NCBI RefSeq assembly: GCF_019059575.1
Contig: NW_024882304.1
Span: forward strand, 1 to 64,000
DNA: 64,000 nucleotides
Source: Amphibalanus amphitrite
Taxonomy: Eukaryota > Arthropoda > Thecostraca > Balanomorpha > Balanidae
Direction of reading: 5' to 3'
Under the pieces are notes generated by a model. It was given only the letters and a program-made list of their open reading frames with translations. It did not search any database and had not been told where the DNA came from. Below are positions 43,003 through 64,000 of the stretch, in pieces. Both the position numbers and the translations under genes were made by a program. The first letter of the stretch is position 1, and each line of letters opens with the position of its first letter.

Positions 43003-43022
43003 CATGGTACAGGGCTCGCGGG

Positions 43023-43469: not shown

Positions 43470-43765
43470 CGGCGATGAGGTCAGTCACCGCACCGGGCGT
43501 ATTGCACGGGGACCCTAACAGACGCCTCACTCCTTTCCCTCATCTCAGTTGTTCTTTCATTTTTTTATTATTATAAATAATGGAGATAGACCAGAGCATT
43601 TTCGGTGCATTTATTAGGGTCATGTTACTCCAACGGGGTTGCGTTGTCGGCACAGTCCTGTCTGGTCTGTGTGCTGCGGCGATGCTCTGCCATCCGGTGA
43701 CCCAACGCCACTGTCCGCTGACCGAGTGTCGGCTCTCTGCTGACCGTGTAACGTCTGTCCGTCAG

Positions 43766-43887
43766 GGTGGTGGCCGTGAACGCCTGTCGGACGGCGCCGG
43801 AGGGCAGCGCCGGCCGGGTGCTGTCACTGCTGGACCAGCTGCGGCTGCCGGACGCCGGAGCGCTGCCCGACTGGGGTCTACATCCTG
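43766..43887 (+). CDS. Exon C, between units 2 and 3
   Basis: 122-bp copy with CCGTCAG acceptor and GTATGT donor. One Leu changes to Val in the protein-like frame (GRVLSLL). Confidence 0.5.
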
Positions 43888-44575: not shown

Positions 44576-45255
44576 CGCATGTGTTTTTTTTATAGCGCGG
44601 AGAAAAAAGTAGGGATTGTTAGGGTTAAGCAGGGACTCACCGATGTTAGATCCCTCTCTGGGTCTTTTCATAGGGGGTCACGGTCCTGACCCGAGATAGC
44701 TGAGCTGTGTCGCAGCCCTGACCTCAGACAGCTGAGCTGTGCACGCCATCGGCTCGGCCGTCAGTCGCCACAGCCGCTGACGCCAGTGTCCAAACAGCTC
44801 CCAACAATATCCGGCCCTGCTTGAGTGATCACCGGAACGGGCTGCATGGTACAGGACGGGCTGGGAACACGTCAACTCCAGCATGACGTGTAATTCCCAG
44901 TGTACCTGCATGTAGTTTCTTTATTCCTCAGCAGTTGTCATCCCCTTGGCGTTAGTGTTTCGCGTCCCTCCATTGATCACTCCCGCCTCTGATGGCTTAT
45001 CCTGCTATACAGGGCCGGATATTGTTTGGAGCTGTTTGGACACTGGCGTCAGCGGCTGTGGCGACTGACGGCCGAGCCGACGGCGTGCACAGCTCAGCTG
45101 TCTGAGCCCTGAGGTCAGGGCTGCGACACAGCTCAGCTATCTCGGGTCAGGACCGTGACCTATGAAAGGACCCAGAGAGGGATCTAACATCGGTGACTCC
45201 CTGCTTAACCCTAACAATCCCCACTTTTTTGTCCGCGATATAAAAAACACATGCG
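44576..45255. mobile_element. Foldback transposon, unit 3
   Basis: Same ends as in unit 1. The left arm lacks about 25 bp at its inner end, which slightly weakens the hairpin. Confidence 0.8.
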
Positions 45256-45521
45256 GTTAGAGTACCTGTGTCGATTTAATTAAAGTTTATTATGTCAAAG
45301 TTTCAAAACATCAATCCGGTCTGCATGTCTGACTGCTCGCAGAACGGTTCTAGAGGCAGTGTCAGCGCGCGCGGAACGGTCCTCAGATATGTCCACTTTC
45401 AAGCGCGGAACGGTCCTTCTGCGCCACCAGACTCCTCTCCCTCTCCTCTCCCCCTGTCCGCTGGTCTATGTCAGACACCAGAACACCACTGACCTCCCCT
45501 ACCCTCTCCTGACCTTCTCAG

Positions 45522-45656
45522 GTGCCAGCTGAGACGCTGGTCGGCCTACAGAACCTGCTCGTTCACCTGCGGGACGTCTCGGCAGAGATCGCGCACGTCT
45601 ACCAATACCGACTCTGGGACGCTAAGAGGGTCAAGGTGGAGACCGCCCAGAACAGG
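45522..45656 (+). CDS. Exon A, unit 3
   Basis: Open copy; one Asn to Ile change (SAEIAHV). Acceptor and donor intact. Confidence 0.6.
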
Positions 45657-45917
45657 GTATGTAACACAGACCGTAACACAAGCCGTAACGCAGGTCGTTA
45701 CACAGGGCGTAAAATAGATTGAACACAGACCGTAACATAGATCGAACACAGACCGTAACACTGGCTGCGTACGTGCGGGCACTCGGCCGGCCGGAACTGG
45801 GCTGGATCCATTGGGCAATGAACAGGTGCTTTCTGTGACAGCGTCACCGCTGCAGGTCAGTCAGGGGCACACAGACACTGCACCCGGGGCCCTTGTGCAT
45901 GGTACAGGGCTCGCGGG

Positions 45918-46116
45918 TTTTAGCGGTAGGTTTTGCACCTAGAAAATTTAGTGTACTTCAGGCTATATCTTCGTCGTCTTAAGCTTTTAAGTGTTAAAGA
46001 TGCGATCGACTTGTTGGGTAACAAGCCGGCCATGATCGTGTAAAATGGCTTCATCGTAGATCGATTAGTTTCTGAGATATAACCGGAAATGTAAAAGTGC
46101 AAAACCTACCGCTTAA
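45918..46116. mobile_element. 199-bp MITE, unit 3 copy
   Basis: Same family and position as in unit 1. Confidence 0.7.
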
Positions 46117-46241
46117 TCTCGCGAGACCTGTATCTGAGCCCTGAGCGCGCCCATATGTCGCCCCCAGGGCGTGTCGCCGGACGGTTCTGTGTGTCGGACT
46201 GAAACCTGAACCTGCCTGAGTGTTATGCTATGACTCCCCAG

Positions 46242-46364
46242 GGCGTGCCGCCGGATGGGGCGGCCGGCTACCGGGACGGGCTGCGGCGGGCCACCAACGG
46301 CCACCCGCTCTCCGCCGAGGAGGTACAGAAGGTCGTCAGCCGGGTTAACCAGCTCTCCAGCTAG
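46242..46364 (+). CDS. Exon B, unit 3
   Basis: Open 123-bp copy reading GVPPDGAAGYRDGLRRATNG and onward to TAG. The Ser to Pro and Thr to Ala changes are shared with unit 4. Confidence 0.55.
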   Translation, partial: GVPPDGAAGYRDGLRRATNGHPLSAEEVQKVVSRVNQLSS

Positions 46365-46659
46365 CGGCGCAGAGGTCAGTCACCGCACCGGGCGTATTGC
46401 ACGGGGACCCTAACAGACGCCTCACTCCTTTCCCTCATCTCAGTTGTTCTTTCATTTTTTATTATTATAAGTAATGGAGACAGACCAGAGCATTTTCGGT
46501 GCATTTATTAGGGTCATGTTACTCCAACGGGGTTGCGTTGTCGGCACAGTCCTGTCTGGTCTGTAGGCTGCGGCGATGCTCTGCCATCCGGTGACCCAAC
46601 GCCACTGTCCGCTGACCGAGTGTCGGCTCTCTGCTGACCGTGTAACGTCTGTCCGTAAG

Positions 46660-46781
46660 GGTGGTGGCCGTGAACGCCTGTCGGACGGCGCCGGAGGGCA
46701 GCGCCGGCCGGCTGCTGTCACTGCTGGACCAGCTGCGGCTGCCGGACGCCGGAGCGCTGCCCGACTGGGGTCTACATCCTG
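46660..46781 (+). CDS. Exon C, between units 3 and 4
   Basis: 122-bp copy. The acceptor reads CCGTAAG instead of CCGTCAG: the AG remains but the preferred C before it is lost. The body is unchanged in the protein-like frame. Confidence 0.5.
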
Positions 46782-47469
46782 GTATGTTACTGGGAGCGGC
46801 ACGGTGTGTGTTGGGTGCTTCTGACGGTCAGTTGTAGTAACTGTTAGTTCCTCTACTGGCCAACAGGTGAAAAGCGTATTAGCTGTACGGCAATGTAGAG
46901 TTGCTTCAGCTTTGGCGTAAACTTTCTCCTCTTCCGCTCACCATTCACCACCAGAGTCAGCAGCGTCTCGGCTGGCGGTCCAGTCAGTCAGAGCGAGTGT
47001 CTTCACTCGCCACAGCGGGCCGGACCCATTACAGGGCAGCAGAGTTATCAGTTACCAAGTCTTGGCCTATAAAGAAAACCAGGAAATAGTAGCAATTGCA
47101 TATATGTAATGATTCTACTCTATTACGTTTGAGCTAGCGAAGCGTATTCCTGTAACGTTTTTAATAGGCTTGTAAGTCAGCAACCGCTGGGCTGATTGAC
47201 CTGCGTTACTCTTTGTTGCGCGTAATCCTATCCCTTCCATCTCGTTATTGACTACAACTGATGTATCTTGGTGAGTTATTAACTACAACTGATGTATCAT
47301 GGTGAGCGTCGTGACACGTGCGACGTGAAGGGCCAAGAGTGTTGGTTATTCTGCTGCAGTAGCGATTTTGGGTTGCTCATATATCTTGAACCCTGAACTG
47401 CCACGCCGATTGCGCTCAAATTTGGTACACTGTTTGGGACTGGTTGATAGGGATGTGTTTTTTATAACT

Positions 47470-48147
47470 CGCATGTGTTTTTTTATAGCGCGGAGAAAAA
47501 AGTAGGGATTGTTAGGGTTAAGCAGGGACTCACCGATGTTAGATCCCTCTCTGGGTCTTTTCATAGGGGGTCACGGTCCTGACCCGAGATAGCTGAGCTG
47601 TGTCGCAGCCCTGCCCTCAGACAGCTGAGCTGTGCACGCCGTCGGCTCGGCCGTCAGTCGCCACAGCCGCTGACGCCAGTGTCCAAACAGCTCCCAACAA
47701 TATCCGGCCCTGCGGGAGTGATCACCGGAACGGGCTGCATGGTACAGGACGGGCTGGGAACATGTCAACTCCAGCATGACGTGTTCCCAGTGTACCTGCA
47801 TGTAGTTTCTTTATTCCTCAGCAGTTGTCATCCCCTTGGCGTTACTGTTTCGCGTCCCTCCATTGATCACTCCCGCCTCTGATGGCTTATCCTGCTATAC
47901 AGGGCCGGATATTGTTTGGAGCTGTTTGGACACTGGCGTCAGCGGCTGTGGCGACTGACGGCCGAGCCGACGGCGTGCACAGCTCAGCTGTCTGAGCCCT
48001 GAGGTCAGGGCTGCGACACAGCTCAGCTATCTCGGGTCAGGACCGTGACCTATGAAAGGACCCAGAGAGGGATCTAACATCGGTGACTCCCTGCTTAACC
48101 CTAACAATCCCCACTTTTTTGTCCGCGATATAAAAAAAACACATGCG
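47470..48147. mobile_element. Foldback transposon, unit 4
   Basis: Same family and position as in units 1-3, with the same arm deletion as unit 3. Confidence 0.8.
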
Positions 48148-48413
48148 GTTAGAGTACCTGTGTCGAATTAATTAAAGTTTATTATGTCAAAGTTTCAAAA
48201 CATCAATCCGGTCTGCATGTCTGACTGCTCGCAGAACGGTTTTAGAGGCAGTGTCAGCGCGCGCGGAACGGTCCTCAGATATGTCCACTTTCAAGCGCGG
48301 AACGGTCCTTCTGCGCCACCAGACTCCTCTCCCTCTCCCCTCCCCCTGTCCGCTGGTCTATGTCAGACACCAGTACACCACTGACCTCCCCTACCCTCTC
48401 CTGACCTTCTCAG

Positions 48414-48548
48414 GTGCCAGCTGAGACGCTGGTCGGCCTACAGAACCTGCTCGTTCACCTGTGGGACGTCTCGGCAGAGAACGCGCACGTCTACCAATAC
48501 CGACTCTGGGACGCTAAGAGGGTCAAGGTGGAGACCGCCCAGAACAGG
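48414..48548 (+). CDS. Exon A, unit 4
   Basis: Open copy; one Arg to Trp change (HLWDVSAEN). Splice signals intact. Confidence 0.6.
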
Positions 48549-48809
48549 GTATGTAACACAGACCGTAACACAAGCCGTAACGCAGGTCGTTACACAGGGC
48601 GTAAAATAGATTGAACACAGACCGTAACATAGATCGAACACAGACCGTAACACTGGCTGCGTACGTGCGGGCACTCGGCCGGCCGGAACTGGGCTGGATC
48701 CATTGGGCAATGAACAGGTGCTTTCTGTGACAGCGTCACCGCTGCAGGTCAGTCAGGGACACACAGACACTGCACCCGGCGCCCTTGTGCATGGTACAGG
48801 GCTCGCGGG

Positions 48810-49008
48810 TTTTAGCGGTAGGTTTTGCACCTAGAAAATTTAGTGTACTTCAGGTTATATCTTCGTCGTCTTAAGCTTTTAAGTGTTGAAGATGCGATCG
48901 ACTTGTTGGGTAACAAGCCGGCCATGATCGTGTAAAATGGCTTCATCGTAGATCGATTAGTTTCTGAGATATAACCGGAAATGTAAAAGTGCAAAACCTA
49001 CCGCTTAA
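48810..49008. mobile_element. 199-bp MITE, unit 4 copy
   Basis: Same family and position as in unit 1. Confidence 0.7.
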
Positions 49009-49133
49009 TCTCGCGAGACCTGTACCTGAGCCCTGAGCGCGCCCATATGTCGCCCCCAGGGCGTGTCGCCGGACGGTTCTGTGTGTCGGACTGAAACCTG
49101 AACCTGCCTGAGTGTTATGCTATGACTCCCCAG

Positions 49134-49256
49134 GGCGTGCCGCCGGATGGGGCGGCCGGCTACCGGGACGGGCTGCGGCGGGCCACCAACGGCCACCCGC
49201 TCTCCGCCGAGGAGGTACAGAAGGTCGTCAGCCGGGTTAACCAGCTCTCCAGCTAG
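49134..49256 (+). CDS. Exon B, unit 4
   Basis: Open copy identical in translation to unit 3, ending TAG. Confidence 0.55.
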   Translation, partial: GVPPDGAAGYRDGLRRATNGHPLSAEEVQKVVSRVNQLSS

Positions 49257-49552
49257 CGGCGCAGAGGTCAGTCACCGCATCGGGCGTATTGCACGGGGAC
49301 CCTAACAGACGCCTCACTCCTTTCCCTCATCTCAGTTGTTCTTTCATTTTTTTATTATTATAAGTAATGGAGACAGACCAGAGCATTTTCGGTGCATTTA
49401 TTAGGGTCATGTTACTCCAACGGGGTTGCGTTGTCGGCACAGTCCTGTCTGGTCTGTGTGCTGCGGCGATGCTCTGCCATCCGGTGACCCAACGCCACTG
49501 TCCGCTGACCGAGTGTCGGCTCTCTGCTGACCGTGTAACGTCTGTCCGTCAG

Positions 49553-49674
49553 GGTGGTGGCCGTGAACGCCTGTCGGACGGCGCCGGAGGGCAGCGCCGG
49601 CCGGCTGCTGTCACTGCTGGACCAGCTGCGGCTGCCGGACGCCGGAGCGCTGCCCGACTGGGGTCTACATCCTG
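49553..49674 (+). CDS. Exon C, end of unit 4
   Basis: 122-bp copy with CCGTCAG acceptor and GTATGT donor, same as the first copy. Confidence 0.5.
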
Positions 49675-49840
49675 GTATGTTACTGGGAGCGGCACGGTGT
49701 GTGTTGGGTGCTTCTGACGGTCAGTTGTAGTAACTGTTAGTTCCTCTACTGGCCACCAGGTGAAAAGCGTATTAGCTGTACAGCAATGTAGAGTTGCTTC
49801 AGCTTTGGCGTAAACTTTCTCCTCTTCCGCTCACCATTCA
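49675..49840 (+). repeat. Truncated fifth unit
   Basis: The array continues for 166 bp after exon C and stops abruptly at CTCACCATTCA, where unrelated AT-rich sequence begins. This is the right edge of the plus-oriented array. Confidence 0.85.
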
Positions 49841-52006
49841 TGTGGCAAAATAAGAATACCAAAAAACATAGAAAAGTACTAAATCTATACTGAACTCAAC
49901 AAAGTTGTAGCTATTTATATAAATACGGTGTAAAGATGGTAATTTAAGTACAGAAAACACAAGTTCTGTTACAAATGAAGCTACCAGAGGACTTATAAAA
50001 ATTAATTTATTGGCTTGGCGCTTGCAAAAGGAAACATGCAAAATTGCACAGAACACTACCACATATTATCAGCATCATCGAAAAGGACCAAAATTTGCAA
50101 ATCAATTGTGATACCCAAACTAAAATAGCTGGTGATCAGCCATTAAAAAAATATTGAGTGATACTTAAGGAAGCAGTGGTAAAGCCGGTAAAGCATTACA
50201 CAGGACTTGACATTTTCGGCGTGCTACAAGTTTTCTTTACTATCAAGAATACGGAATATCGACACATACGAAGCTATTCAATAGTTACATAATATAAATT
50301 GAATGCTCTCATGATAAAACTACCTCAACCATCCATATCTTCAATGACAAAATAACAATTCCAAGCCCGCCCCACGACACCAAACTTCATACGCGGCGGA
50401 GCTGAGCTGCAAGTTGTAAAGGCCTGGCCAGTTCGCGTTTTCTGCGTGCGTTTTTTGCTTTTGCGAGTTTGCGTGATTTGCATAATATGGTTCAAGAAAG
50501 AAACGATATTATGTTTTGTTTTTGTTATATTTTTATACAAAAAAAAATAATTATTAAATTATTATAAAAGGTTTTATTAACTTTTATATAATATACGCAA
50601 AACACGCAAGCTCGCAAAAAACGCACGCAGAACACGCATAGTGTAGCCAGGACTTTAGTACTGAAGTACGCATGCGCTAAGTGGGCAGCCATCTTTAGTT
50701 TAGCAGCAGAACCATGGATTACTTAACTATATAAAATACATAGTTTTTATTTTTAGATTCAATTAAGCATATTTATGCATGCCTGTGAAACAGTTTTTAT
50801 TCTGTCCAGTCCATTAAAGAAAAAAATATCAAACAGTAAAAATCTAAATTGGTTTGGCAATATGTATTTAGCCCAGCACTAGGAAGTTGCAGCGTATATT
50901 GACGCGGCTGCGACATAAAAGCGTATTTTGCGTGGTTTCCATGTGGCAAATATTGCGAGCAGTCTGACAAATCTCTAATCCGAATTTATCATCGAATGCA
51001 AAACTGTTAGCGGTCCTCAAAACTGGAAGGTGAAGAACACCAAACGGATAAAGATTGTTTGTTGAGCTATGAAAACAATAGTTTTTGGGTGATGGTGGAG
51101 GTGATGGGAAGGTGGTTGTTTTTTTCAAATACCTAGTAGGGTATGTATCTACTTTTTGCCATTGTATCTTTACTTTTGTGTAATTGGGAGCCACCACGGC
51201 AATATGTGACAGATCCATCAATGCTCATAAGCCAAGGTATTCCAATATTTACGTTGATAGGTAAACGCTGATTCTGCTGGGAAATGTAAAGTGAGTGAGA
51301 AGACCATGGATTAGATCAAGCAATTTATGACCCTTAGCCCAAAATCAAATCAGTAACTAAGGTTACCAAATTATAATGTGAACATGCATTGTGTATTCAT
51401 CAATATGTTTTGCTTGCTCACAAATGTCCTGTTGAAACAGGGTATTGAAAATATAAAGATTAACATGATATCATAAACATGTGTGTTGAGCAATGTGCGC
51501 CTGCTTACTGCTACTGTTAACTTGATAACTATACTGATTTTAGGGCACAGGAATGAAACTTTACATTCATTTTTTCATCTTCATGTATTGACATTTATGT
51601 ATAATTTTGTGTTTACAGTTTGATTAAAAACTTAAAACAAAATTTCTATGTTTTTTTCAATAATGATAGCTGTGCGCATTTATAATACTGACAAAATACA
51701 TAAAAAATTTGCAGTGCATTGTGTGTGACTATGATGCAAATAGCACATATATTTCTACATAATATAGCATTAAATATGGTCATAACTTCAATTTCCAGCA
51801 CACGGTGATTGAATCATTTTGTTAATTCAATCAACTTGAATCGATGAGTTGCCGATTCAATCACTTGCAGTTGCCATGTGTGACCGATTCAATCAGGATT
51901 CATATGGTGACAAGAGGTGATTCAACCGACTCAATCACAGTGAGTCGGCATTTTCAAGCGATTCATGAGAATCGATTCAATCAGAGTTGAATCGCTTACA
52001 AGTCTG
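49841..52006. other. AT-rich spacer between the two array arms, ending in a hAT terminus
   Basis: About 2.2 kb without a recognisable gene. From about 51805 short GATTCAATCA-type repeats occur on both strands. The stretch ends CTTACAAGTCTG at 52006, the same terminus as the hAT element at 60790-62794. A matching left terminus (CAGACTTGTAA) is not present at 49841, so the element is truncated or the spacer is composite. Confidence 0.5.
50423..50651. mobile_element. MITE with GCGTTTTCTGCGTGCG arms (229 bp)
   Basis: Inverted arms of about 55 bp: CCTGGCCAGTTCGCGTTTTC on the left and the complement, with small differences, on the right. AT-rich centre, no coding. No clear target duplication. Confidence 0.65.
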
Positions 52007-52181
52007 GTTACACGGTCAGCAAAGAGACGAAACTCGGTCAGCGGACAGTGGCGTTGGGTCACCGGATGGCAGAGCATCGCCGCAGCACACAGACCAGACA
52101 GGACTGTGCCGACAACGCAACCCCGTTGGAGTAACATGACCCTAATATATGCACCGAAAATGCTCTGGTCTATCTCCATTA

Positions 52182-53028
52182 CAGTCGGGGGAGGTTTGGT
52201 CAATCGTTGTCATTTTTAGCACGTGCTATTTTTGTCACACGTGCTAAAAATGACAACGATTCTGCTATTTTTGACAACGATGAGGCCGATTTCACTCCTC
52301 AGCGAGGAAATGAAGATTTTGGAAAGATTAACACTGATTTTGGAAAAGAAGTGCTGCCACCTGGTGCAAGACGAAGAATCCAGCTTTAATATGCCTGTTA
52401 TTTGTATGGTAGTTTGTTTTGTGGCCTGAAGTTGGAACTTAAAATTGAAGCATCCGAAAATGATCGATATTGATCGAAAACATGATGTTGATGAAAAAAA
52501 TAATATTTTAAGTTGAGAGAGGAGGCCATTTTATCCAGATGCAGTAGTTTACTTCTTGAAATTATTTTTGCTAATGACGGCTGCTAATTATCCCTCATTA
52601 CATGGCAGTCGTCGCAAGCAAAAATAATTTCAAGAAGTAAACCACCGCATCTGGATAAAATGGCCTCCTCTCTCAACTTAACATATTATTTTTTTCATCA
52701 ACATCATGATTTCGATCAATATCGATCATTTTCGGATGCTTCAATTTAAAGTTCCAACTTCGGGCCACAAAAAAGGGTATACTTCAACGTTGGACTACCA
52801 TACAAACAACGGCCATATTAAAGCTGGTTTCTTCTTCTTGCACCAGGTGGCAGCACTTCTTTTCCAAAATCAGTGCTTGTATTTCCAAAATCGTGATTTC
52901 CTCGCTGAGGAGTGAAATCGGCTTCATCGTTGCTAAAAATAGCTGATAGCGTTGTCATTTTTAGCACATGGTTGCCAAAAATGGCATGTGCTAAAAATGA
53001 CAACCATTGACCAAACCTCCCCCAACTG
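52182..53028. mobile_element. Long palindromic transposon (847 bp) with ATTA target duplication
   Basis: Ends CAGTCGGGGGAGGTTTGGTC and complement of CAGTTGGGGGAGG; ATTA on both sides (52178-52181 and 53029-53032). Sister copies of the unit read CTCCATTATTTATAA without the insert. The two halves are near-complementary over roughly 400 bp each with a centre near 52600, so the whole element can fold into one hairpin. Several GTGCTAAAAATGACAAC-type motifs lie near both ends. No transposase. Superfamily not determined. Confidence 0.85.
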
Positions 53029-53140
53029 ATTATTTATAATAATAAAAAAATGAAAGAACAACTGAGATGAGGGAAAGGAGTGAGGCGTCTGTTAGGGTCC
53101 CCGTGCAATACGCCCGGTGCGGTGACTGACCTCTGCGCCG

Positions 53141-53262
53141 CTAGCTGGAGAGCTGGTTCACCCGGCTGACGACCTTCTGTACCTCCTCGGCGGAGAGCGG
53201 GTGGCCGTTGGTGGCCCGCCGCAGCCCGTCCCGCTAGCCGTCGCCCCATCCGGCGACACGCC
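53141..53262 (-). pseudogene. Exon B, inverted unit: frameshifted
   Basis: The minus-strand copy of exon B is one base shorter than the others, because of a change around 53233-53243 (CCGCTAGCCGTCGCCCC against CCGGTAGCCGGCCGCCCC). This breaks the frame after GVSPDG. The acceptor is still present. The unit therefore cannot encode the same C-terminus. Confidence 0.65.
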
Positions 53263-53387
53263 CTGGGGAGTCATAGCATAACACTCAGGCAGGTTCAGGT
53301 TTCAGTCCGACACACAGAACCGTCCGGCGACACGCCCTGGGGGCGACACATGGGCGCGCTCAGGGCTCAGGTACAGGTCTCGCGAGA

Positions 53388-53586
53388 TTAAGCGGTAGGT
53401 TTTGCACTTTTACATTTCCGGTTATATCTCAGAAACTAATCGATCTACGATGAAGCCATTTTACACGATCATGGCCGGCTTGTTACCCAACAAGTCGATC
53501 GCATCTTCAACACTTAAAAGCTTAAGACGACGAAGATATAGCCTGAAGTACACTAAATTTTCTAGGTGCAAAGCCTACCGCTAAAA
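53388..53586. mobile_element. 199-bp MITE, inverted unit copy
   Basis: Same family and relative position as in unit 1, on the reversed unit. Confidence 0.7.
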
Positions 53587-53818
53587 CCCGCGAGCCCTGT
53601 ACCATGCACAAGGGCGCCGGGTGCAGTGTCTGTGTGTCCCTGACTGACCTGCAGCGGTGACGCTGTCACAGAAAGCACCTGTTCATTGCCCAATGGATCC
53701 AGCCCAGTTCCGGCCAGCCGAGTGCCCGCACGTACGCAGCCAGTGTTACGGTCTGTGTTCGATCTATGTTACGGTCTGTGTTCAATCTATTTTACGCCCT
53801 GTGTAACGATCTGCGTTA

Positions 53819-54383
53819 ACAACTTTTTATACAACTTTTTAATATACAACTTTTATACAACTTTAATATACAACTTTTTTCTTAGAGGGGTCGGACGTGT
53901 TTGAAGGGGCTCTAGTATTTTGTCATTTTTTACCGTAACTAGATTGTGTCACGAGCTGAAAATAATATAGCGTGGTTAGGAATTTAACGTAGAATGTTTA
54001 ACTGTAATTCATAAAGTTTAATGTTGTGTAACTTGCCAGATATAAGCGTTTGAAAATGGTAAAATTTTGAACTTTAGTTAAAAAAACATTGCTGTTTGGA
54101 CTGCTGATCCACGCTTGATTTTTGCCAAAAAAGCTCGTGAATATTAACAACGCGTAACTGCGACCTAAAGCTCCCACGAAATAAAAGTCGGCAATATCGT
54201 ATGGATATTGCCGTATGGATATATCCATATATATCGTATGGATATATATGAGCTGATTGCACCGAAGAAATCAACGGGAAGATGCGTTGAATTGCAACTG
54301 TATGAAGTCGGCCCATGAGAAGTAATCAAGCTCCTCTTGGGATTGCTATTGTCCGGATGGTGTAGGTTTCTTCGCTCTTCGTT
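53819..54383 (+). promoter_or_regulatory. 5' leader of the REL-type LINE
   Basis: Begins with AT-rich direct repeats (ACAACTTTTTAATATACAAC type, 53819-53880). Around 54197-54252 GTATGGATAT recurs at least three times and its complement ATATCCATA once, giving a possible hairpin. Promoter function is inferred from position only. Confidence 0.35.
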
Positions 54384-57300
54384 TTGAATAATTGTTCGAC
54401 ATCTTTTACTCCAGTGCAAGACTATGCTCGGCCACTCTTTTCCAAGACTACATTTAATAACTTGAACTCAAGCGCAATGACCCGAAGACTAACCAGCAAA
54501 CATGTCACATACCCTTGCGGCGCATGCAGCCGGGGTGTCGGGAGCGGCTCAGTTCAATGCCACCAATGTAGCCGGTGGTTCCATGGCCGCTGCGCAGCCC
54601 TCAACCGGTCGAATTTGCTGCGACTCGCGAAGCTCCACACGAAATGGAGATGCACCACCTGCCAAAATACTCCTGTCGCCCAGCCCTGCGACCCGCAGCG
54701 TCCTACCTCCAACGGCGAGAACAGCCCACAGCCGCCTCGCGACGCCTCAACACCAGCCTCCTCGCCGTCACCGACACCGACCAGCCAGCCAGCGCGAGAC
54801 GCCTCACCACCAGCCTCCTCGCCGTCACCGACACCGACCAGCCAGCCAGCGCAAGACGCCTCACGACCAGCCTCCTCGCCGTCACCGACACCGACCAGCC
54901 AGCCAGCGCGAGACGCCTCACCACCAGCCTCCTCGCCGTCACCGACACCGACCAGCCAGCCAGCGCGAGACGCCTCACCACCAGCCTCCTCGCCGTCACT
55001 GGTTCCGGCCAGCCAGCCACCTCACGACGCCAGAGACCAGCCGTCCACCCAGAGTCCTGCTGAGTGTGTCGCCTGCTCCATTCGCAGCCGCAGGAAGACA
55101 ACCATCACCTGCGGCTCCTGTAGGCAACTATGGCATACTTCCTGCGCTAAGGTCCCCGCAAGGAAATCCCATCACCTCCCTGTTTGGCATTGTCCTGCAT
55201 GCCTCGGCCGCGAGTCAGCCCAGCTCTCTGACGCTTTCAACGGAAGAGAGGTTCCAGACACTGGCGTCGTCGAAGGACTGGCAACTCTAAGGAGAAGCAC
55301 TAAACTAATCTCGCGAATACCTAAAGGCGTAAGGCCTCTGGTGGCCGATGCCCTATGCAGCGCCTTAGAGGATGCCCTTAAGCTACGCACAATCTGCGCG
55401 TGGTGGACCTTCCTGTCTTTCGCGTTCTTCGCGCTACGCACACCAGGAAAAGGAGATAGTAATGTCAGTGCAGCAGCGAGCATCAGGCAGCAGCTCTCCA
55501 GCCCCAACCAAACCATGACACCAAACCTGCTTCCCGAACCACCAACAAATGACTCGGCACGAGAACATCATAAGCCTGCCACTGACGCCCTGGCCCGTCG
55601 GATCCTCGGGAAATGTGCAGATGGCGACATCCGGGCGGCCCTAAGGCTACTGACCTCAGACGATACAGTTGCCGAGCCCGACGCCGAAGTAATCGCCGAG
55701 CTAATGCTGAAACACCCAGCAGCTCCCAAGGACGAGCTTCTGCCGCCACCGCCCGCCCCATCAGACCCAGGGCCGCTCACGGCGACGCCGGAGGAGGTGG
55801 AGGCCGCTATCAACTCGATGCCTCCGGGATCATCAGCAGGCCTAGACGGCATCAGGCCGCTACATCTACGCCAGCTTATCTCCAGGGAGGCGGCTGAGAG
55901 CGGCCGCCGTCTTTTGCACTCTTTGACGGTACTCACCAACCTGGTGCTGGCCGGCGAGGTGCCGGATTGTGCCAGGGACGCCCTTTTCAGCGCCTCACTA
56001 TGCGCACTCAGGAAGAAGAGCGGCGGATTGCGGCCCATCGCAGTCGGGAGCGTCTACCGACGCCTGCCATCCCGCATCGGAGCACGCTTCGTGGCAGCCA
56101 GCCTTGGTGCCGAACTCCGTCCTGTCCAGCTCGGGGTAGGAACGCCCCTGGGCTGCGAGGCGGCGGTCCATGCGACGCGCAGTTTCATTGAAGCCAGCCG
56201 ACAGTCAGCTGCTCCACACGTGCTGGTCAAACTTGACGTGTCAAATGCTTTTAACACGGTGCGGCGCGACGTCTTCTTGACCCGCATTAGGGAGCGATGT
56301 CCGGAGGTGTACTACCTAGCCTACCAGGCCTACAGCTCACCCAGCCCACTCATCATCGGAGGGCAGACCATCGCTTCGGCCTGCGGTGTCCAGCAAGGCG
56401 ACCCGCTCGGACCAGCCGCGTTTGCTATCGCCATTGACTCCTGTGCCAGAGCAGCGTCAGCACCTCTGAACATCTGGTACTTGGACGATGCAACGCTGGC
56501 CGGTCCAGCCAGCGCGGTCGCTGCTGACATCGCAACACTTCCAACAGCGCTGGCAGCCGCTGGTCTCTCACTGAACGCGGCCAAGTGTGAGGTGGCCTTC
56601 ATTGGCGCTGAAGATTCGGACCAACGCGACGCTGCCATCAGCGCCATTTGCTCTGCGCTGCCTGACGTCAAAGAGACTGAGCTCACAAACCTATCTCTGC
56701 TTGGCTCTCCCCTGACCGACGGCAGCATAGGAGCAGCAGGGGAGGCAGCCTCTGCTATGGTGCAACGCCTCTGCACCCGGCTGCGCGAGCTAGACAGCCA
56801 CACTGCGGTGTTTTTCTTGGCGCACCACGTATCGGCACCGCGTCTGACGTACCTGCTGCGCTCCGCACCGACGTTCAAAGCCCCACACGTACTCCAGGCT
56901 ACTGACGAAATGGTGCGCAGCACACTAGAAGCGGTCTGCAACGTGGCCATAAACCCTGCGGCATGGGAGCAGGCGTCGCTTCCAGTGAAGTTCGGCGGCC
57001 TGGGCATCCGGTCAGTCGAGGCACTGGCGCTACCAGCGTACATTGCGTCGGTAAACGCAGCACGCCCCCTCATCCGTTCCATCTGTCCGAGTGTGACTGA
57101 TGAACTCTCAGACACCTTGGAGACCGCAGTCAGCGCGTTCCTTCATCGCACAGGGGTGGACCGACAGCAGCTGCCGGACGGTGAGCTGGTCAGTAGTCAG
57201 CGCGCGTGGGACACCGTCGCCTGTACGGTGGTCCAAAGTCGCCTACTGGTACCAGCCAACCAGATCGACCGAGCTCGGCTCATCGCCGCCGGCCAGCCAC

Positions 57301-59876
57301 ACACAGCGGCCTGGATCCAGGCGGTGCCGGTACCGAGTCTCGGGCTTCACCTCGACGACGAAACCGTCCGCGTCGCTGTGGCCCTGAGACTCGGCGCCCC
57401 GGTTTGCGAGCCGCATCGGTGCCGTCTGTGTGCGCGCCCCGTCACCCCGCTGGGACATCATGGCCTCTCCTGCCAGAAAAGTGCGGGTCGCCACTCGCGT
57501 CATGCCCACTTGAACGACGTGGTGCGTCGCGCTCTCTCCGGCGCTGGCTTTCCCGCCATTCTGGAGCCAGTCGGCCTCGACCGGGGCGACGGCAGACGAC
57601 CGGATGGCATCACCGTCTTCCCCTTCCGCGAGGGCAAGTGTCTGACGTGGGACGCGACCTGCGTCGACACTTTCGCCGACCACATAGCGGTGGAGTCCGC
57701 ACTGAAACCGGGTGCAGCTGCAAGGCAGGCCGAAGAGCGAAAGCGGCAGCGTTATGCGGACCTAGCCAGGAGGTATAGCTTTGTTCCGGTGGCACTGGAG
57801 ACAACCGGTGTCTATGGTCCGGCCGCCGCCGCTTTCGTCCAGGACCTGGGGAGACGCCTGGCAACCTGCACGGGTGAGCGTCGCGAGACGGAGTGGCTGC
57901 GACAGCGGCTGTCCGTGGCCATCGCTCGTGGCAACGCGGCCTCCGTCCTCGCCACCGCTCCCCAATCTGGCATAGAACAAGCAGGCCAAACCCGCAGGGC
58001 TGCCTCCACCGCTGGGAGCAACCCAGGGACGACGCGCCGGTGGCCGCGGAGCCACGCGGTAACGGCGGCTACGCCATCGGCTAGCTGTGCGCCTGAGGTC
58101 GAAACCAGCGGCAAGAGGAGCACAAGAGCCACGCCGCCCAAGGCAGATTCTCCGACTGAGATCAACCTGGGCAACTCGTGCTACCGGCGCGGCCTGGTCA
58201 ACCTTGGGAACACGTGTTACATGAACACCGTGCTACAGGCGCTGTTCCATTCAGATCAGCTGCGCGGCGAGGTGCTGGCGGCGCGGCCGTCCCCCTCCCG
58301 CCCGCGCCTGGCGGCACTACAGCGAGTGTTCGCCTTCCTGGCGTTCTCGGAGCGGCCCGTCTACAGCCCGGGCGAGTTCCAGCGGACCGCTCTGCCGCCC
58401 TGTTTTGAGCGGGGCCGGCAGCACGACTGCTCAGAGTTCCTCCGATGCTTTCTGGACGCCTTGCATGAGGAGGAGCGGTCTCCGGCGGCTTCCCCTGCCG
58501 CACCGGTCGCGGTCTCGCCGCCAGTCCCTCCAGCTGCTGCCGCCGCACGCGCCAGAGACGACTCCAGCGTGCCGGGAGCAGCGGCGATGGAGCGGCCGCG
58601 GTCCCGGCGCCGGCACCGTTCCTGCGACACTGCGCGGGCCGGCGGGAGATCGCCGCTGGTGCAGCTCTCTGACCTGGCCAGCGACGATGTGGTGATGGCA
58701 GACCCGGCCGGAGACAGGGCGGAGCGGACTGCCGCGGAGGGGGAGCCCACAGAGTCACCGGACACCGGCGGGACGCAGCAGACTGATCCGGACGGCCAGG
58801 CGCAGGGCGAGGTGGTGCGTGAGCACGGTACTGGCGACGCCGGAGCTGAGGAGCCGCCCGCCGGCCTGGTCCGTCGGCTACTGACCGGACGGGCTGAGAC
58901 TACGTTCACCTGTCTCACGTGCGGCGGCGCTTCGCGCCACGAGAACAGCGTGACGGACCTGCACCTAGCTCTGCCGGAGTCGGTGACACGGTCACTGACG
59001 GCAGCTGCCGCGGGCGCCGGGGGAGCCGAAACTGCGCCGGCGTTCGGCCCCGCGCCGCGGCCGGTCGGTTGGCGGGGCACGCCACCGACGGACAACCAGA
59101 CAGAGATCGAGCTAACCGTATCGCAGCTGCTGCTCGACTACCTGACGCCGGAACGACTGTGCGGTGATAACCAGTATTACTGTACCAAGTGCACCGGCCT
59201 GCGGGACGCCGAGCGCCAGCTGCGACTGCTCTCTCCGCCAGCCAACCTGGTTGTCTCCTTGATGAGGTTCGCGGTTGACCGGCGCACCGGTGCACGCCGC
59301 AAGGTTCTCACCCCTGTGGAGCTCACCGAGTGGCTGACAGTGCCGCTAGCCACCGGCCCGCCCGCCCAGTACCGGCTGTATGCAGTGATAGTCCACGCGG
59401 GCCATTCGCTTGACGCTGGCCACTATTTCTCATTCTGTCGCGCCTCCGGTGGCGGTGGTATTGAAGGGATGGACGATACCGGCTGGTGGCGGCTGGACGA
59501 TACGTCAGCGGTGCCGGTGCCGGCGGCCACCGCGCTGGGCCGGCCGCGCCGCTCCACCGAGGCAGCCTACACGCTGCTGTACCGGCTGACCGATGCAGCG
59601 GTGGCGGTGGCGGCGGGCGGCTTGTCGGCGCTGGCCGCCCTGCCTGGCCCGCTGCGAGCTGCCGTGGAACGAGACAACGCCGTTTTCCGACGGGAGCGGC
59701 AGAGCCGGACGGCCGGCGCACTGCCGATGGTCCACGACGGACGGCCGCCGCCGGGTGCCGGCTGCGGCGGCGACAGCGGGCCCGGCGTCCCTCGGATGCG
59801 TCAGCCGACGACGAGGCGAAGCGGTCCAAGCAGGAGAACGGCCACAACGGCGTCAACGGCCAGGCGGCGCCCCTGA
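54384..59876 (+). CDS. Fusion ORF: PHD-PHD-RT-REL endonuclease-USP35/38-type deubiquitinase
   Basis: A single open frame of 1830 codons. PHD-like finger 1 (about 44-92, CGAC, CHQC, WRCTTC). Five 19-residue Pro/Ser repeats (120-214). PHD-like finger 2 (228-274, CVAC, CGSC, WHCPAC). RT (about 465-760) with KLDVSNAFNT near 613, GVQQGDPLGP at 668 and catalytic YLDD, Asp701 and Asp702. CCHC (from 1013) and endonuclease with RPDG, Asp1074, and WDAT, Asp1090. A linker of about 70 residues follows, then a USP domain (about 1268-1740): catalytic Cys1278 in NLGNTCYMN, QHDCSEFL, zinc ligands C1510/C1513 and C1600/C1603, GDNQYYCTKC, His1680 in AGHYFSF, and Asp1705 in WWRLDDTS. The USP half resembles USP38/USP35 but lacks their N-terminal helical region. 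The Met at 54477 is an alternative start. The last 90 residues are low-complexity. Confidence 0.85.
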   Translation: MNNCSTSFTPVQDYARPLFSKTTFNNLNSSAMTRRLTSKHVTYPCGACSRGVGSGSVQCHQCSRWFHGRCAALNRSNLLRLAKLHTKWRCTTCQNTPVAQPCDPQRPTSNGENSPQPPRDASTPASSPSPTPTSQPARDASPPASSPSPTPTSQPAQDASRPASSPSPTPTSQPARDASPPASSPSPTPTSQPARDASPPASSPSLVPASQPPHDARDQPSTQSPAECVACSIRSRRKTTITCGSCRQLWHTSCAKVPARKSHHLPVWHCPACLGRESAQLSDAFNGREVPDTGVVEGLATLRRSTKLISRIPKGVRPLVADALCSALEDALKLRTICAWWTFLSFAFFALRTPGKGDSNVSAAASIRQQLSSPNQTMTPNLLPEPPTNDSAREHHKPATDALARRILGKCADGDIRAALRLLTSDDTVAEPDAEVIAELMLKHPAAPKDELLPPPPAPSDPGPLTATPEEVEAAINSMPPGSSAGLDGIRPLHLRQLISREAAESGRRLLHSLTVLTNLVLAGEVPDCARDALFSASLCALRKKSGGLRPIAVGSVYRRLPSRIGARFVAASLGAELRPVQLGVGTPLGCEAAVHATRSFIEASRQSAAPHVLVKLDVSNAFNTVRRDVFLTRIRERCPEVYYLAYQAYSSPSPLIIGGQTIASACGVQQGDPLGPAAFAIAIDSCARAASAPLNIWYLDDATLAGPASAVAADIATLPTALAAAGLSLNAAKCEVAFIGAEDSDQRDAAISAICSALPDVKETELTNLSLLGSPLTDGSIGAAGEAASAMVQRLCTRLRELDSHTAVFFLAHHVSAPRLTYLLRSAPTFKAPHVLQATDEMVRSTLEAVCNVAINPAAWEQASLPVKFGGLGIRSVEALALPAYIASVNAARPLIRSICPSVTDELSDTLETAVSAFLHRTGVDRQQLPDGELVSSQRAWDTVACTVVQSRLLVPANQIDRARLIAAGQPHTAAWIQAVPVPSLGLHLDDETVRVAVALRLGAPVCEPHRCRLCARPVTPLGHHGLSCQKSAGRHSRHAHLNDVVRRALSGAGFPAILEPVGLDRGDGRRPDGITVFPFREGKCLTWDATCVDTFADHIAVESALKPGAAARQAEERKRQRYADLARRYSFVPVALETTGVYGPAAAAFVQDLGRRLATCTGERRETEWLRQRLSVAIARGNAASVLATAPQSGIEQAGQTRRAASTAGSNPGTTRRWPRSHAVTAATPSASCAPEVETSGKRSTRATPPKADSPTEINLGNSCYRRGLVNLGNTCYMNTVLQALFHSDQLRGEVLAARPSPSRPRLAALQRVFAFLAFSERPVYSPGEFQRTALPPCFERGRQHDCSEFLRCFLDALHEEERSPAASPAAPVAVSPPVPPAAAAARARDDSSVPGAAAMERPRSRRRHRSCDTARAGGRSPLVQLSDLASDDVVMADPAGDRAERTAAEGEPTESPDTGGTQQTDPDGQAQGEVVREHGTGDAGAEEPPAGLVRRLLTGRAETTFTCLTCGGASRHENSVTDLHLALPESVTRSLTAAAAGAGGAETAPAFGPAPRPVGWRGTPPTDNQTEIELTVSQLLLDYLTPERLCGDNQYYCTKCTGLRDAERQLRLLSPPANLVVSLMRFAVDRRTGARRKVLTPVELTEWLTVPLATGPPAQYRLYAVIVHAGHSLDAGHYFSFCRASGGGGIEGMDDTGWWRLDDTSAVPVPAATALGRPRRSTEAAYTLLYRLTDAAVAVAAGGLSALAALPGPLRAAVERDNAVFRRERQSRTAGALPMVHDGRPPPGAGCGGDSGPGVPRMRQPTTRRSGPSRRTATTASTARRRP
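54741..55025 (+). repeat. Five tandem 57-bp repeats in the LINE ORF
   Basis: Exact 57-bp periodicity starting at GACGCCTCA (54741, 54798, 54855, 54912, 54969), encoding DASPPASSPSPTPTSQPAR with small changes. In frame, so copy number can vary without breaking the ORF. It forms the flexible linker between the two PHD-like fingers. Confidence 0.95.
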
Positions 59877-60036
59877 TATGCGTCCGCCCCGACCTAGACC
59901 CGCTGCCCCGCCCTTCTGATCTGGTTCACCCGTACATAATGTCTCGCCGCATCATTTTATTGTGCTATTAAATGTACCTGTTTTGGTGTAAATAAACATC
60001 TGCGTTACGGCTTGTGTTACGGTCTGTGTTACATAC

Positions 60037-60171
60037 CCTGTTCTGGGCGGTCTCCACCTTGATCCTCTTAGCGTCCCAGAGTCGGTACTGGTAGAGGTGC
60101 GCGTTCTCTGCCGAGACGTCCCGCAGGTGAACGAGCAGGTTCTGTAGGCCGACCAGCGTCTCAGCTGGCAC
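60037..60171 (-). CDS. Exon A, inverted unit
   Basis: Open 135-bp copy on the minus strand with intact acceptor and donor. Differences from unit 1 are conservative (Val to Leu in AHLYQYR, Val to Ile in AKRIKV). It lies 40 bp from the LINE 3' junction. Confidence 0.6.
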
Positions 60172-60258
60172 CTGAGAAGGTCAGGGGAGGGAGACCGGAT
60201 TGATGTTTTGAAACTTTGACATAATAAACTTTCATTTATTCGACACAGGTAGCCTAAC

Positions 60259-62820
60259 CGCATGTGTTTTTTATATCGCGGACAAAAAAGTGGGGATTGT
60301 TAGGATTAAGCAGGGAGTCACCGATGTTAGATCCCTCTCTGGGTCCTTTCATAGGTCACGGTCCTGACCCGAGATAGCTGAGCTGTGTCGCAGCCCTGAC
60401 CTCAGGGCTCAGACAGCTGAGCTGTGCACGCCGTCGGCTCGGCCGTCAGTCGCCACAGCCGCTGACGCCAGTGTCCAAACAGCTCCAAACAATATCCGGC
60501 CCTGTATAGCAGGATAAGCCATCAGAGGCGGGAGTGATCAATGGAGGGACGCGAAACACTAACGCCAAGGGGATGACAACTGCCGAGGAATAAAGAAACT
60601 ACATGCAGGTACACTGGGAACACGTCATGCTGGAGTTGACGTGTTCCCAGCCCGTCCTGTACCATGCAGCCCGTTCCGGTGATCACTCCCGCCTCTGATG
60701 GCTTATACTGCTATACAGGGCCGGATATTGTTTGGAGCTGTTTGGACACTGGCGTCAGCGGCTGTGGCGACTGACGGCCGAGCCGACGGCAGACTTGTAA
60801 ACGACTCTGAGTTGATTCGTGAATCGACTCAGAATCAAACCGTTTTTCGATGAGTCATGAGTTGATTCGAATTACTTCATCGAGGAACTTGATGAGTCAT
60901 GAGTTGATTCGAATCAATTAAATTTAACATCATGAGTCATTTGATGAATCGATTCAAATTTTCAGACTCAAACAAAGAATCGACTCAAAAAATTTGAGTC
61001 GTTTACAAGTCACCATCAACACCCTAATAATCAATGCTAGATCACCCCCTCAGCTTTAGCCATCACTTAACTCCATATTTCAGACTTACAAGAGCCTCAG
61101 AGGCTCAGGCACAGGCGCCTAATGAGCCAAAAGCATTTGGCAGTTGGTAGGTACTTAGTCTTACCAAACCAAGTGCCTGCTACACTACCTAGGTACCTAC
61201 ATTTTACATGTCAGAAGTCAGAATTGACACCTGCGGCTGCCTCCCCTTCTCCCAGTCCCAATTTGGTCCCAATAATCAATCAACAGCATAAGAGTTTGGG
61301 CGTCTATAGAGTCAAATACGCCCAAACTACCTATAGCCTATAAACTACCTATAGGCTATGATATAATATAAATAAACTCACCTATAAACCGCAAAATTGC
61401 GATGCTCAACTGCCAATAAACCACAAAATGCACATTTTTTCCATGAAATAGAAGTTTAAAAAGAAACTTGTTTTATGACATCATAGAATCTTCAGAATAA
61501 TGTTAAGGAGCGGCTTTGAAATATTTCCTCAGCGATCTCCATTCGCCTAAAATATGTACTATGAGTGACGTCATGAATTCAAGAATAGAATGTGAAAGTC
61601 ATAGTATGTTTTAAGAAAACTACATTAATGGCGCAGTTGATAACTTTCACGTCTGAATCTCGCGACAAATTGGCCGGATGACGTTGCCCGAATTGCACCA
61701 ATGACAATTTATTTTTACCAAAAGAGCCACTTGGTCAGTGCTCCGGTGCTCCTGATATCGATTAATATTCAATAACGTCATTTTTAATCTAAAATTGTAG
61801 ACTAACAATATTTTTTATATTCCTTCATTTTAATCTCCACGTTGAGCCAACATAAATGGTACCTAAGTGACGGATGGGTGATCTAGCTGGCAGCCAGTTG
61901 GCACTGCTAAACTAGGTGCCGTTTGGAGAATGTATATTGTATACCTACATTAACTGCTTTCAATGAGTCTCAACTCAAGATCATATCTGATTCTGAGGCC
62001 TGAGCCACTCATGCAAGGTCGTGGCCTCGTGGCCCATGGAGTCCCTGCGGATGCTGAATGTTTCACAGGTGGGATTAATCCTATTTTTGAGGTTGTACTG
62101 TTTGAATAATTTTATCTGATAAATATGAAGTAGTAACATTTGTCTCATTATCATGTAGAAAAAGTTTGATTAAAAAAAAAACATGAATGCCTCTCGGAAC
62201 TTGTGCTTTTAAATTTTCAAATAAGACTTTCTAGGTAATAATAAGAGATGGTTACTATGCTACTCCTTAGTCCTTACTTATATTATAATTGTCTCTCAGA
62301 GTTACTTACAAATTTATCTGACATTGCACTGTTGACTGTTGAGTGTTGAAGATAGGTAGGTGTAAGGTAGGTACCTATGTACCTAGTCCTACTAGGTAGC
62401 TGCTTGAATCTTTGGTCAAGGCTACTATGCTGCTTAATACAATTTTGGTATGCAGCATATTCATTTTATCATAGCTTTGAGTCAAATAATCAACAAATGC
62501 CTATAGTGAGTCATGGGTTGAATGAAATAAGTTCAATAAAAATGTCGTGTGAGTCATGAGTTGGTTTGAATCTATTCATCAAAATGTGTGAGTCATGAGT
62601 TGATTCGAATCATTCCGTTGGCTAGTTGCTCGAGTCATGAGTTGATTCGAATCATTTTATCGAGGAACTTGATGAGTCATGAGTTGATTCGAATCAATTA
62701 AATTTAACATCATGAGTCGTTTGATGAATCGATTCAAATTTTCAGACTCAAACAAAGAATCGACTAAAAAAAAATTGAGTCGCTTACAAGTCTGGCCGAC
62801 GGCGTGCACAGCTCAGCTGT
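60259..62820. mobile_element. Foldback transposon, inverted unit, split by a hAT element
   Basis: The CGCATGTG end is at 60259. Both arms are recognisable, but the second is broken by the hAT at 60790-62794 and then stops early at GCTCAGCTGTCTTAG, with adjacent unit sequence deleted. Confidence 0.75.
60790..62794. mobile_element. Non-autonomous hAT element (2005 bp)
   Basis: Ends CAGACTTGTAAACGACTC and GAGTCGCTTACAAGTCTG with an exact 8-bp duplication GCCGACGG (60782-60789 and 62795-62802). Many copies of GAGTCATGAGTTGATTCGAA lie within 230 bp of the left end and 290 bp of the right end, typical subterminal binding repeats. The middle 1.5 kb is AT-rich and has no transposase or other recognisable gene. 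Confidence 0.9.
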
Positions 62821-63177
62821 CTTAGCTCAATCGTAATAGAGTAGAATCATTACATATATGCAATTGCTACTATTTCCTGGTTTTCTTTATAGGTCAAGGC
62901 TTGGTAACTGATAACTCTGCTGCCCTGTAATGGGTCCGGCCCGCTGTCGCGAGTGAAGACACTCGCACTGACTGACTGGACCGCCAGCCGAGACGCTGCT
63001 GACTCTGGTGGTGAATGGTGAGCGGAAGAGGAGAAAGTTTACGCCAAAGCTGAAGCAACTCTACATTGCTGTACAGCTAATACGCTTTTCACCTGGTGGC
63101 CAGTAGAGGAACTAACAGTTACTACAACTGACCGTCAGAAGCACCCAACACACACCGTGCCGCTCCCAGTAACATAC

Positions 63178-63299
63178 CAGGATGTAGACCCCAGTCGGGC
63201 AGCGCTCCGGCGTCCGGCAGCCGCAGCTGGTCCAGCAGTGACAGCAGCCGGCCGGCGCTGCCCTCCGGCGCCGTCCGACAGGCGTTCACGGCCACCACC
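63178..63299 (-). CDS. Exon C, inverted unit
   Basis: 122-bp copy on the minus strand with GTATGT donor and CCGTCAG acceptor intact, same protein-like frame as 13355-13476. Confidence 0.5.
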
Positions 63300-63473
63300 C
63301 TGACGGACAGACGTTACACGGTCAGCAAAGAGACGACACTCGGTCAGCGGACAGTGGCGTTGGGTCACCGGATGGCAGAGCATCGCCGCAGCACACAGAC
63401 CAGACAGGACTGTGCCGACAACGCAACCCCGTTGGAGTAACATGACCCTAATAAATGCACCGAAAATGCTCTG

Positions 63474-63649
63474 GGGCCGTATTCACGTCGACTTCGTAAG
63501 TCGATTTTCTTTCGTAAGCATAATTTGGCATTCACGTCGGCACTTCTTAAGTTTTTATCGACGAAGTTCACGTGAATAAAAAAATTTACATAAGAAGTAG
63601 GTCAAACTTGAGAAAATTCTTACGAAAATGATCGACGTGAATACGGCCC
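63474..63649. mobile_element. PIF/Harbinger-like MITE (176 bp)
   Basis: Ends GGGCCGTATTCACGTCGA and exact complement, with a 3-bp duplication CTG (63471-63473 and 63650-63652). Sister units read GCTCTGGTCTATC without the insert, or with GCATT variants. Short ends with GGGCC and a 3-bp duplication fit PIF/Harbinger, although the usual target is TWA. Confidence 0.85.
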
Positions 63650-63773
63650 CTGGTCTATCTCCATTATTTATAATAATAAAAAATGAAAGAACAACTGAGA
63701 TGAGGGAAAGGAGTGAGGCGTCTGTTAGGGTCCCCGTGCAATACGCCCGGTGCGGTGACTGACCTCATCGCCG

Positions 63774-63896
63774 CTAGCTGGAGAGCTGGTTCACCCGGCT
63801 GACGACCTTCTGTACCTCCTCGGCGGAGAGCGGGTGGCCGTTGGTGGCCCGCTGCAGCCCGTCCCGGTAGCCGGCCGCCCCATCCGGCGACACACC
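63774..63896 (-). CDS. Exon B, second inverted unit
   Basis: Full-length 123-bp copy on the minus strand, open to its TAG, with GVSPDGAAGYRDGLQRATNG at the start (Arg to Gln change). Acceptor CCCCAG is followed by GGTGTG rather than GGCGTG. Confidence 0.55.
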   Translation of the reverse strand, partial: GVSPDGAAGYRDGLQRATNGHPLSAEEVQKVVSRVNQLSS

Positions 63897-64000
63897 CTGG
63901 GGAGTCATAGCATAACACTCAGGCAGGTTCAGGATTCAGTCCGACACACAGAACCGTCCGGCGACACGCCCTGGGGGGCGACACATGGGCGCGCTCAGGG

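Follow-up and report, generated by a model that had tools for sequence, protein, structure and literature searches.

The window analysed here, the whole stretch of 64,000 nucleotides, carries a single open reading frame of 1830 codons on its forward strand (54384-59876) that encodes two PHD fingers, an R2-like reverse transcriptase (RT), a block of motifs of the restriction-like endonuclease (RLE) type and a complete USP-type deubiquitinase domain. The frame starts at TTG and stops at TGA; its first in-frame ATG lies at residue 32, so that the likely protein comprises 1799 residues. The positions of all features are compiled in Table 1; residue numbers refer to the 1830-codon frame.

Table 1. 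Parts of the fused element and its boundaries, in order of position in the window
Feature	Position	Strand	Basis or remark
Left target-site duplication copy, ATCTGCGTTA (at least CTGCGTTA)	53809..53818	+	
Whole insertion: 5' region, LINE frame, linker, USP domain, 3' end	about 53819..59997	+	
5' untranslated region, opening with 24-bp AT-rich tandem repeats (53819-53879)	53819..54476	+	TRF (repeats); first in-frame ATG at 54477
Likely coding frame, 1799 aa plus stop	54477..59876	+	
PHD finger 1 (C4HC3)	54516..54662	+	Pfam PF00628; Cys/His spacing
In-frame tandem repeat, 57 bp, 4.9 copies, Pro/Ser-rich unit of 19 residues	54741..55019	+	TRF
PHD finger 2 (C4HC3)	55065..55202	+	Second of two Pfam PHD stretches; spacing and position
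Reverse transcriptase	56010..56600	+	Pfam RVT_1; conserved motifs LDVSNAF, QQGDPLG, YLDD
CCHC finger and RLE-type motif block (RPD ... WD)	57420..57662	+	Motif letters by eye; no profile match
Linker, codon signal absent in every frame	57951..58160	+	
Extra Cys-box-like motif, INLGNSCY	58161..58184	+	
USP catalytic domain	58188..59582	+	Pfam UCH, whole profile; USP35 best in PDB; residues
Catalytic residues C1278, H1680 and D1705	58215-58217; 59421-59423; 59496-59498	+	
Tail, codon signal in another frame	59796..59876	+	Probable frameshift, outside the catalytic domain
ATTAAA (59967-59972) and AATAAA (59991-59996), close to the 3' end	59967..59996	+	
Right target-site duplication copy, ATCTGCGTTA	59998..60007	+	

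Domains of the joint protein and the seam between them

The N-terminal portion contains two stretches recognised by the Pfam PHD profile, the better one at residues 45-93 (E 1.5e-7), and the two fingers are separated by the 57-bp in-frame tandem repeat. RVT_1 is matched by residues 543-739 (E 3.4e-14). The best PDB matches of the RT are the R2 proteins 9nl3 and 9dou (E 5.9e-11), LINE-1 ORF2 being weaker (1.4e-3). Further downstream follow the letters CRLC (1013-1016), GLSC (1027-1030), RPD (1072-1074) and D1090, in the context CRLC...GLSC and RRPDG...WDATC. These presumably belong to an endonuclease of the RLE type, an assignment made by comparing letters by eye with R2-type motifs; Pfam gave no RLE profile match in the protein of this frame. 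No Pfam match to Exo_endo_phos (APE-type endonuclease) or to Ulp1 was obtained in the fused protein at E values up to 0.1, the protease being the C-terminal UCH domain, and a search of NCBIfam returned only a group II RT match far below its cutoff. In the 5' region Rfam gave only two chance-level matches, and no ribozyme was found there, including an HDV-like one at the 5' end. On these sequence features the LINE part is best read as an RLE-type non-LTR retrotransposon with an R2-like RT.

The C-terminal portion matches the Pfam UCH profile over its entire length (profile positions 1-254 of 254, residues 1269-1733, E 5.5e-36; 124.9 bits against a cutoff of 23.9) and also matches UCH_1 (E 4.7e-8). 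The catalytic triad and four zinc-ligand cysteines, the latter arranged in two CxxC pairs (CLTC 1510-1513 and CTKC 1600-1603), are all present; the catalytic positions, and the aspartate in particular, are those that we take to be equivalent from USP7 numbering and the aligned motifs. Among the best 60 of 83 PDB matches the nearest solved USP is human USP35 (5txk; E 6.8e-49, 169 bits), and the next, USP12 (3e-20, 74 bits), reaches less than half of that score. The USP part therefore appears to be USP35/38-like, in the sense that USP35 is the closest among solved structures. It is open over some 530 codons and is thus without introns. A structure model of this part from the single sequence was uninformative (pLDDT 38). 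The predicted domain is complete with intact active-site residues, and may have deubiquitinating activity. One uninterrupted 1830-codon frame joining a LINE RT to a USP-type deubiquitinase with Cys1278, His1680, Asp1705 and all zinc-ligand cysteines in place had been the core of the original prediction, and this core is borne out by the open frame, by RVT_1 and the whole UCH profile, and by the residues themselves. Of the domain set that it listed, the two PHD fingers, RT and USP are recovered by Pfam, and the endonuclease is read from its motif letters only.

How much weight does the open frame itself carry? In first-order random sequences of matched make-up neither the LINE part (0 of 300) nor the USP part (0 of 500) was found open, whereas the linker was open in 27% of 2000 trials, so that the in-frame join alone is weak evidence. 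Combined with the one-in-three chance of meeting the right frame, an accidental in-frame join is expected in ~9% of cases (about one in eleven), and the open frame alone is therefore no proof of selection.

A codon score, trained on the USP part itself and hence favouring it, was calculated from position 57384 within the LINE onwards. In the frame of the ORF it is positive in eight of eleven windows up to the linker and in 29 of 31 windows from 58149 to 59729; in the four windows of the linker (57945-58148) every one of the three frames scores below zero. A frame other than that of the ORF meets a stop codon shortly past the RLE block. These observations fit a scenario in which the LINE's own frame ended near 57970 and the sequence downstream was opened towards the USP, which a single sequence cannot prove.

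At the join (58161-58226) the Cys box occurs twice in frame, as INLGNSCY and as VNLGNTCYMN, 36 bases apart. Of 100 shuffles of the window, only one contained as many as two matches to a degenerate Cys-box pattern (shuffle mean 0.03). The two boxes are alike at 19 of 24 shared bases, three of the differences being silent and two conservative (I/V, S/T), and the likeness falls to 5 of 24 bases before and 8 of 24 after them; on these figures a target-site duplication was rejected as their source. The doubling may stem from two different USP genes that each left a fragment, from a duplication on the spot followed by drift, or from the donor gene itself, if it already had both boxes; in the boldest reading an earlier USP at the end of the LINE may have been replaced by a fresh one. 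It is unexplained by a single simple capture.

The base composition differs along the frame as well. GC3 amounts to 0.666 over 913 codons of the LINE, to 0.652 over the 69 of the linker and to 0.784 over the 528 of the USP part, and the contrast between LINE and USP (Fisher P 1.9e-6) is as expected for parts of separate origin. From 59796 onwards, GC by codon position in the frame of the ORF is 0.44/0.93/0.70, which is a coding pattern read in frame 2. The codon score likewise prefers frame 2 in three windows (59781, 59832 and 59883), weakly prefers frame 1 at 59730 and prefers none at 59934. The last ~26 residues are thus probably out of the donor's frame, by a shift that would be recent enough for the old frame to show.

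Boundaries of the insertion and its surroundings

A multi-copy repeat occupies 10448-16733, 42514-49840, 53029-53818 and 60000-63977 of the window, on both strands and with pieces that are mostly 94-99% alike; in 43003-49840 it is arranged in tandem with a spacing of ~2.9 kb, and it contains a 12-bp minisatellite (GTAACACAGACC). Both flanks of the fused element, left of 53819 and right of 59998, belong to this repeat, and the insertion site lies within its 12/23-bp minisatellite (TRF). The left flank matches five other places in the window, of which 43003-43209 stops short of the insertion site. Empty sites are seen in four of four copies, at 12380, 16518, 45686 and 48578 (reverse strand), where both flanks adjoin each other with no insert between them. 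These four copies are identical to each other over 120 bases around the site and read ACCTGCGTTA at the point of insertion; the duplication is accordingly 10 bp long if the target copy had a T and 8 bp at minimum. On the right, agreement of the flank with the other copies lasts for 192 bases and resumes ~180 bases further on, the other copies having ~180 bases more at this place, which indicates that this repeat copy changed in other ways too.

The empty sites together with the flanking duplication place LINE and USP within one insertion, and the arrangement is best explained by the arrival of both in one event. The fusion is thus real, and it stands on firmer ground than originally stated since both parts lie inside one insertion with a target-site duplication. 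Its membership of a family with a maintained deubiquitinase is hypothetical, and so are the roles that had been suggested for the domain.

Between the stop codon of the USP part and the target-site duplication there are 121 bases. ATTAAA ends 25 nt and AATAAA 1 nt before the edge of the insertion; a poly(A) tract at the 3' end of the insertion was not found, nor was a recognisable LINE 3'UTR after the USP. An end 25 nt past ATTAAA resembles the 3' end of an mRNA and supports the capture of an mRNA.

Other elements populate the window. An APE-type LINE lies at 22-4500 on the reverse strand, with one ORF (22-2664) containing Exo_endo_phos and RVT_1 and a second one (2746-4500) with CCHC-like knuckles recognised by eye and no Pfam match. 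ORFs that encode RNase H and integrase domains, and that we assigned by eye to Gypsy-like LTR elements, are located at 5374-9994 (reverse strand) and 39468-41927 (forward strand), the former also comprising RVT_1 and, in its ORF 8534-9994, DUF7041. Retroelement pieces on the forward strand encode a retroelement-type aspartyl protease (19075-19935) and DUF5641 (36222-36917). An inverted pair of ~930 bp, 94% alike, spans 28053-30883 and includes an ORF (30056-30883) that looks Penelope-like by eye and has no Pfam match, and a tandem array with a 20-bp unit and a higher-order period of 145 bp is found at 34840-35350. An Rfam search of the window gave no family above threshold.

A second copy of the LINE was not detected in the window (tblastn, E 1e-3). 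Four protein-guided scans of viral and prokaryotic contigs for relatives of the RT-RLE part and of the linker-USP part gave 1, 2, 27 and 45 pattern matches, none of which was confirmed; each scan used six patterns derived from one sequence, so that only close relatives were detectable. Two DNA motif scans of viral contigs yielded 27 and 6 stretches, and the best tblastn match of the protein to any of these 33 had an E value no lower than 0.36. As the collections are viral and prokaryotic, these misses say nothing about animal genomes.

Origin of the fusion

We consider it rather probable, judging from the sequence, that an RLE-type LINE took up the 3' portion of a USP35/38-like mRNA and that the product entered the repeat by target-primed reverse transcription. 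The portion taken from the host mRNA would start at the catalytic domain and include the 3' end, and the single ORF of the LINE would then read via the linker into the USP deubiquitinase. The chimeric RNA could have come from a LINE transcript spliced to USP exons or from template switching, and its reverse transcription into the nicked minisatellite of the repeat would leave the duplication of 8-10 bp. Several findings count against this capture: only one copy is seen, poly(A) is lacking, AATAAA ends 1 nt from the edge, no recognisable LINE 3'UTR follows, the Cys box is doubled, and the right flank shows that this repeat copy has undergone other changes. Passages of PMC13174262 name four routes, known or proposed, by which LINE-1 chimeras arise: mis-splicing, trans-splicing, RNA ligation and template switching; in the mRNA chimeras described there the mRNA is carried at the 5' end of the LINE. 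In the present element the mRNA part is at the 3' end, for which splicing or read-through fits better than template switching.

The capture bears signs of being recent and possibly of being a one-off, namely the GC3 contrast, the linker without codon signal and the tail frameshift. In one version of the capture reading, to which we give slightly less than an even chance, a splicing event or template switch at or just before insertion produced a single chimera, in which the USP is a functionless passenger that left no descendants. The single copy, the GC3 contrast that has not been evened out, a linker so often open by chance that the frame needs no more luck than calculated above, a tail whose old frame is still readable, and the existence of the routes listed for LINE-1 chimeras (PMC13174262, in the passages cited) all agree with it. 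It is harder to reconcile with the intact state of the checked catalytic and zinc residues, it leaves the doubled Cys box and the 3' end without poly(A) unexplained, and the LINE-1 chimeras of that source have their mRNA at the opposite end.

Alternatively, the captured domain may have become part of an established LINE family, in which the order PHD-RT-RLE-USP is common to many copies and the USP is selected for retrotransposition, which could likewise hold for Ulp1 in NeSL and one Utopia. The 1830 open codons and the complete UCH profile with its active site speak for this version, as do the Ulp1-like proteases that passages of PMC4640811 describe in NeSL and Utopia-1_TSP, and the extra Cys box could be left over from a USP that the lineage carried before. 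The GC3 contrast and the tail frameshift speak against it, and no second copy was found in the collections searched (viral and prokaryotic, no animal genomes). The frameshift and the codon-free linker give no sign of long selection on the whole fusion, and the GC3 contrast and the frameshift are no less compatible with a recent capture than with a domain kept over a long time. We therefore hold the established family to be possible but doubtful, and a recent one-off capture to be at least as likely.

The remaining explanations dispense with a capture. Two nested insertions, either a USP retrocopy that received the LINE or the reverse, would be in keeping with the frequency of retroelements in the window. 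Direct repeats are then expected at the inner edge, and none supporting this was found: the start of the LINE (53819-54480) and the junction (57930-58230) share no direct repeat of at least 8 bases, a comparison of the junction with 59800-60010 gave one 8-mer that bounds neither part and is about at chance level, and nothing recognisable as a LINE 3' end was seen downstream of the USP. We regard nesting as improbable. An artefact of assembly at the join between LINE and USP is less credible still; the surroundings are rich in repeats, but the perfect 10-bp duplication at the outer boundaries and a frame that runs on across the join oppose it.

Finally, the LINE could sit in an intron of a host USP gene or next to one of its exons. 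Pfam contains a model for the USP38 N-terminal region, and a Pfam search of the three forward frames of 44385-54385 for upstream USP exons gave four weak and unrelated matches only. Although the USP part could be an exon itself and the join falls just upstream of the Cys box, a joint frame by accident of position is the least plausible explanation of all, contradicted by the four empty sites that lack both parts of the one insertion and opposed by this search without any USP-related match as well as by the mRNA-type 3' end at the edge of the insertion.

Possible role and relation to known systems

If the joint protein is translated, the C-terminal deubiquitinase would travel with the ribonucleoprotein, on the integration protein. 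Its most likely action would be in cis, stripping ubiquitin from the protein of the element itself, and the simplest role would be to shield this protein against ubiquitin-dependent turnover; chromatin proteins at the target would be the second choice of substrate. A review (PMC12420623), in which the term H2B is absent, reports deubiquitination of HDAC1 and LSD1 by USP38. An RLE-type LINE lineage with a working USP on a PHD-RT-endonuclease polypeptide, perhaps renewed from host USP genes as the two Cys boxes might suggest, and protecting its ribonucleoprotein or editing ubiquitin at the integration site, is an unlikely extension of these considerations. Should other copies share the fusion, a new kind of cargo for such elements would be at hand; even as a one-off it would be a clean case of an RLE-type LINE that captured part of an mRNA, and one for which the empty site is known.

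With R2 and other RLE-type LINEs the element shares a single ORF with N-terminal zinc fingers, an R2-like RT followed by CCHC and putative RLE motifs, and insertion into a repeat. It differs from them by its PHD-type fingers and its C-terminal USP. Whereas R2 goes into the 28S gene, this copy sits in a minisatellite within a 2.9-kb repeat; targeting of microsatellites by some RLE-type families is mentioned in passages of PMC4640811. According to the same passages NeSL (in nematodes) and Utopia-1_TSP carry a Ulp1-like protease, and they thus likewise represent RLE-type LINEs with a cysteine protease of the ubiquitin/SUMO pathway. There, however, the protease is Ulp1-like and N-terminal, while here it is a USP (C19) and C-terminal. 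Spliced-leader or U2 genes are targets of NeSL and Utopia, and some Utopia elements insert outside these genes (PMC4640811, same passages). The copy in our window, in which no Rfam family exceeded threshold, lies in a minisatellite, a single insertion being too little to show a target specificity. An ORF extended C-terminally by a captured foreign domain is also known from insect R1 LINEs with an SF1 helicase (passages of PMC4686597), but that helicase is of a plant-virus type and R1 is a separate clade with an APE-type endonuclease. Human USP35 (5txk) and its relative USP38 differ from the USP part described here, which has no N-terminal host region, is joined to a LINE and has a tail that is probably frameshifted.

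Among the matches listed from open-licence PMC papers no LINE with a USP was found, in line with the expectation that such an acquisition has not been described. OTU proteases, which had been ascribed to some LINE clades, were not met there; passages of PMC2836005 place OTU in Ginger1 transposases and some Helitrons. In these passages OTU or Ulp1 is found on Ginger1 transposases, with a PHD finger as well in one family, and a transposase of T. vaginalis carries Peptidase C19, the class to which USPs belong. The likeness to the present protein, a C-terminal deubiquitinase or deSUMOylase on a transposon protein, in one family together with PHD, is therefore considerable, yet these are cut-and-paste DNA transposons that have no RT. 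Since proteases of the ubiquitin/SUMO pathway (Ulp1, OTU, C19) recur on unrelated transposons in the sources cited, transposition may be held in check by ubiquitin control. A USP-bearing LINE would add an independent instance, the first in a retroelement among the matches listed, and a direct one, with the enzyme placed on the integration protein.
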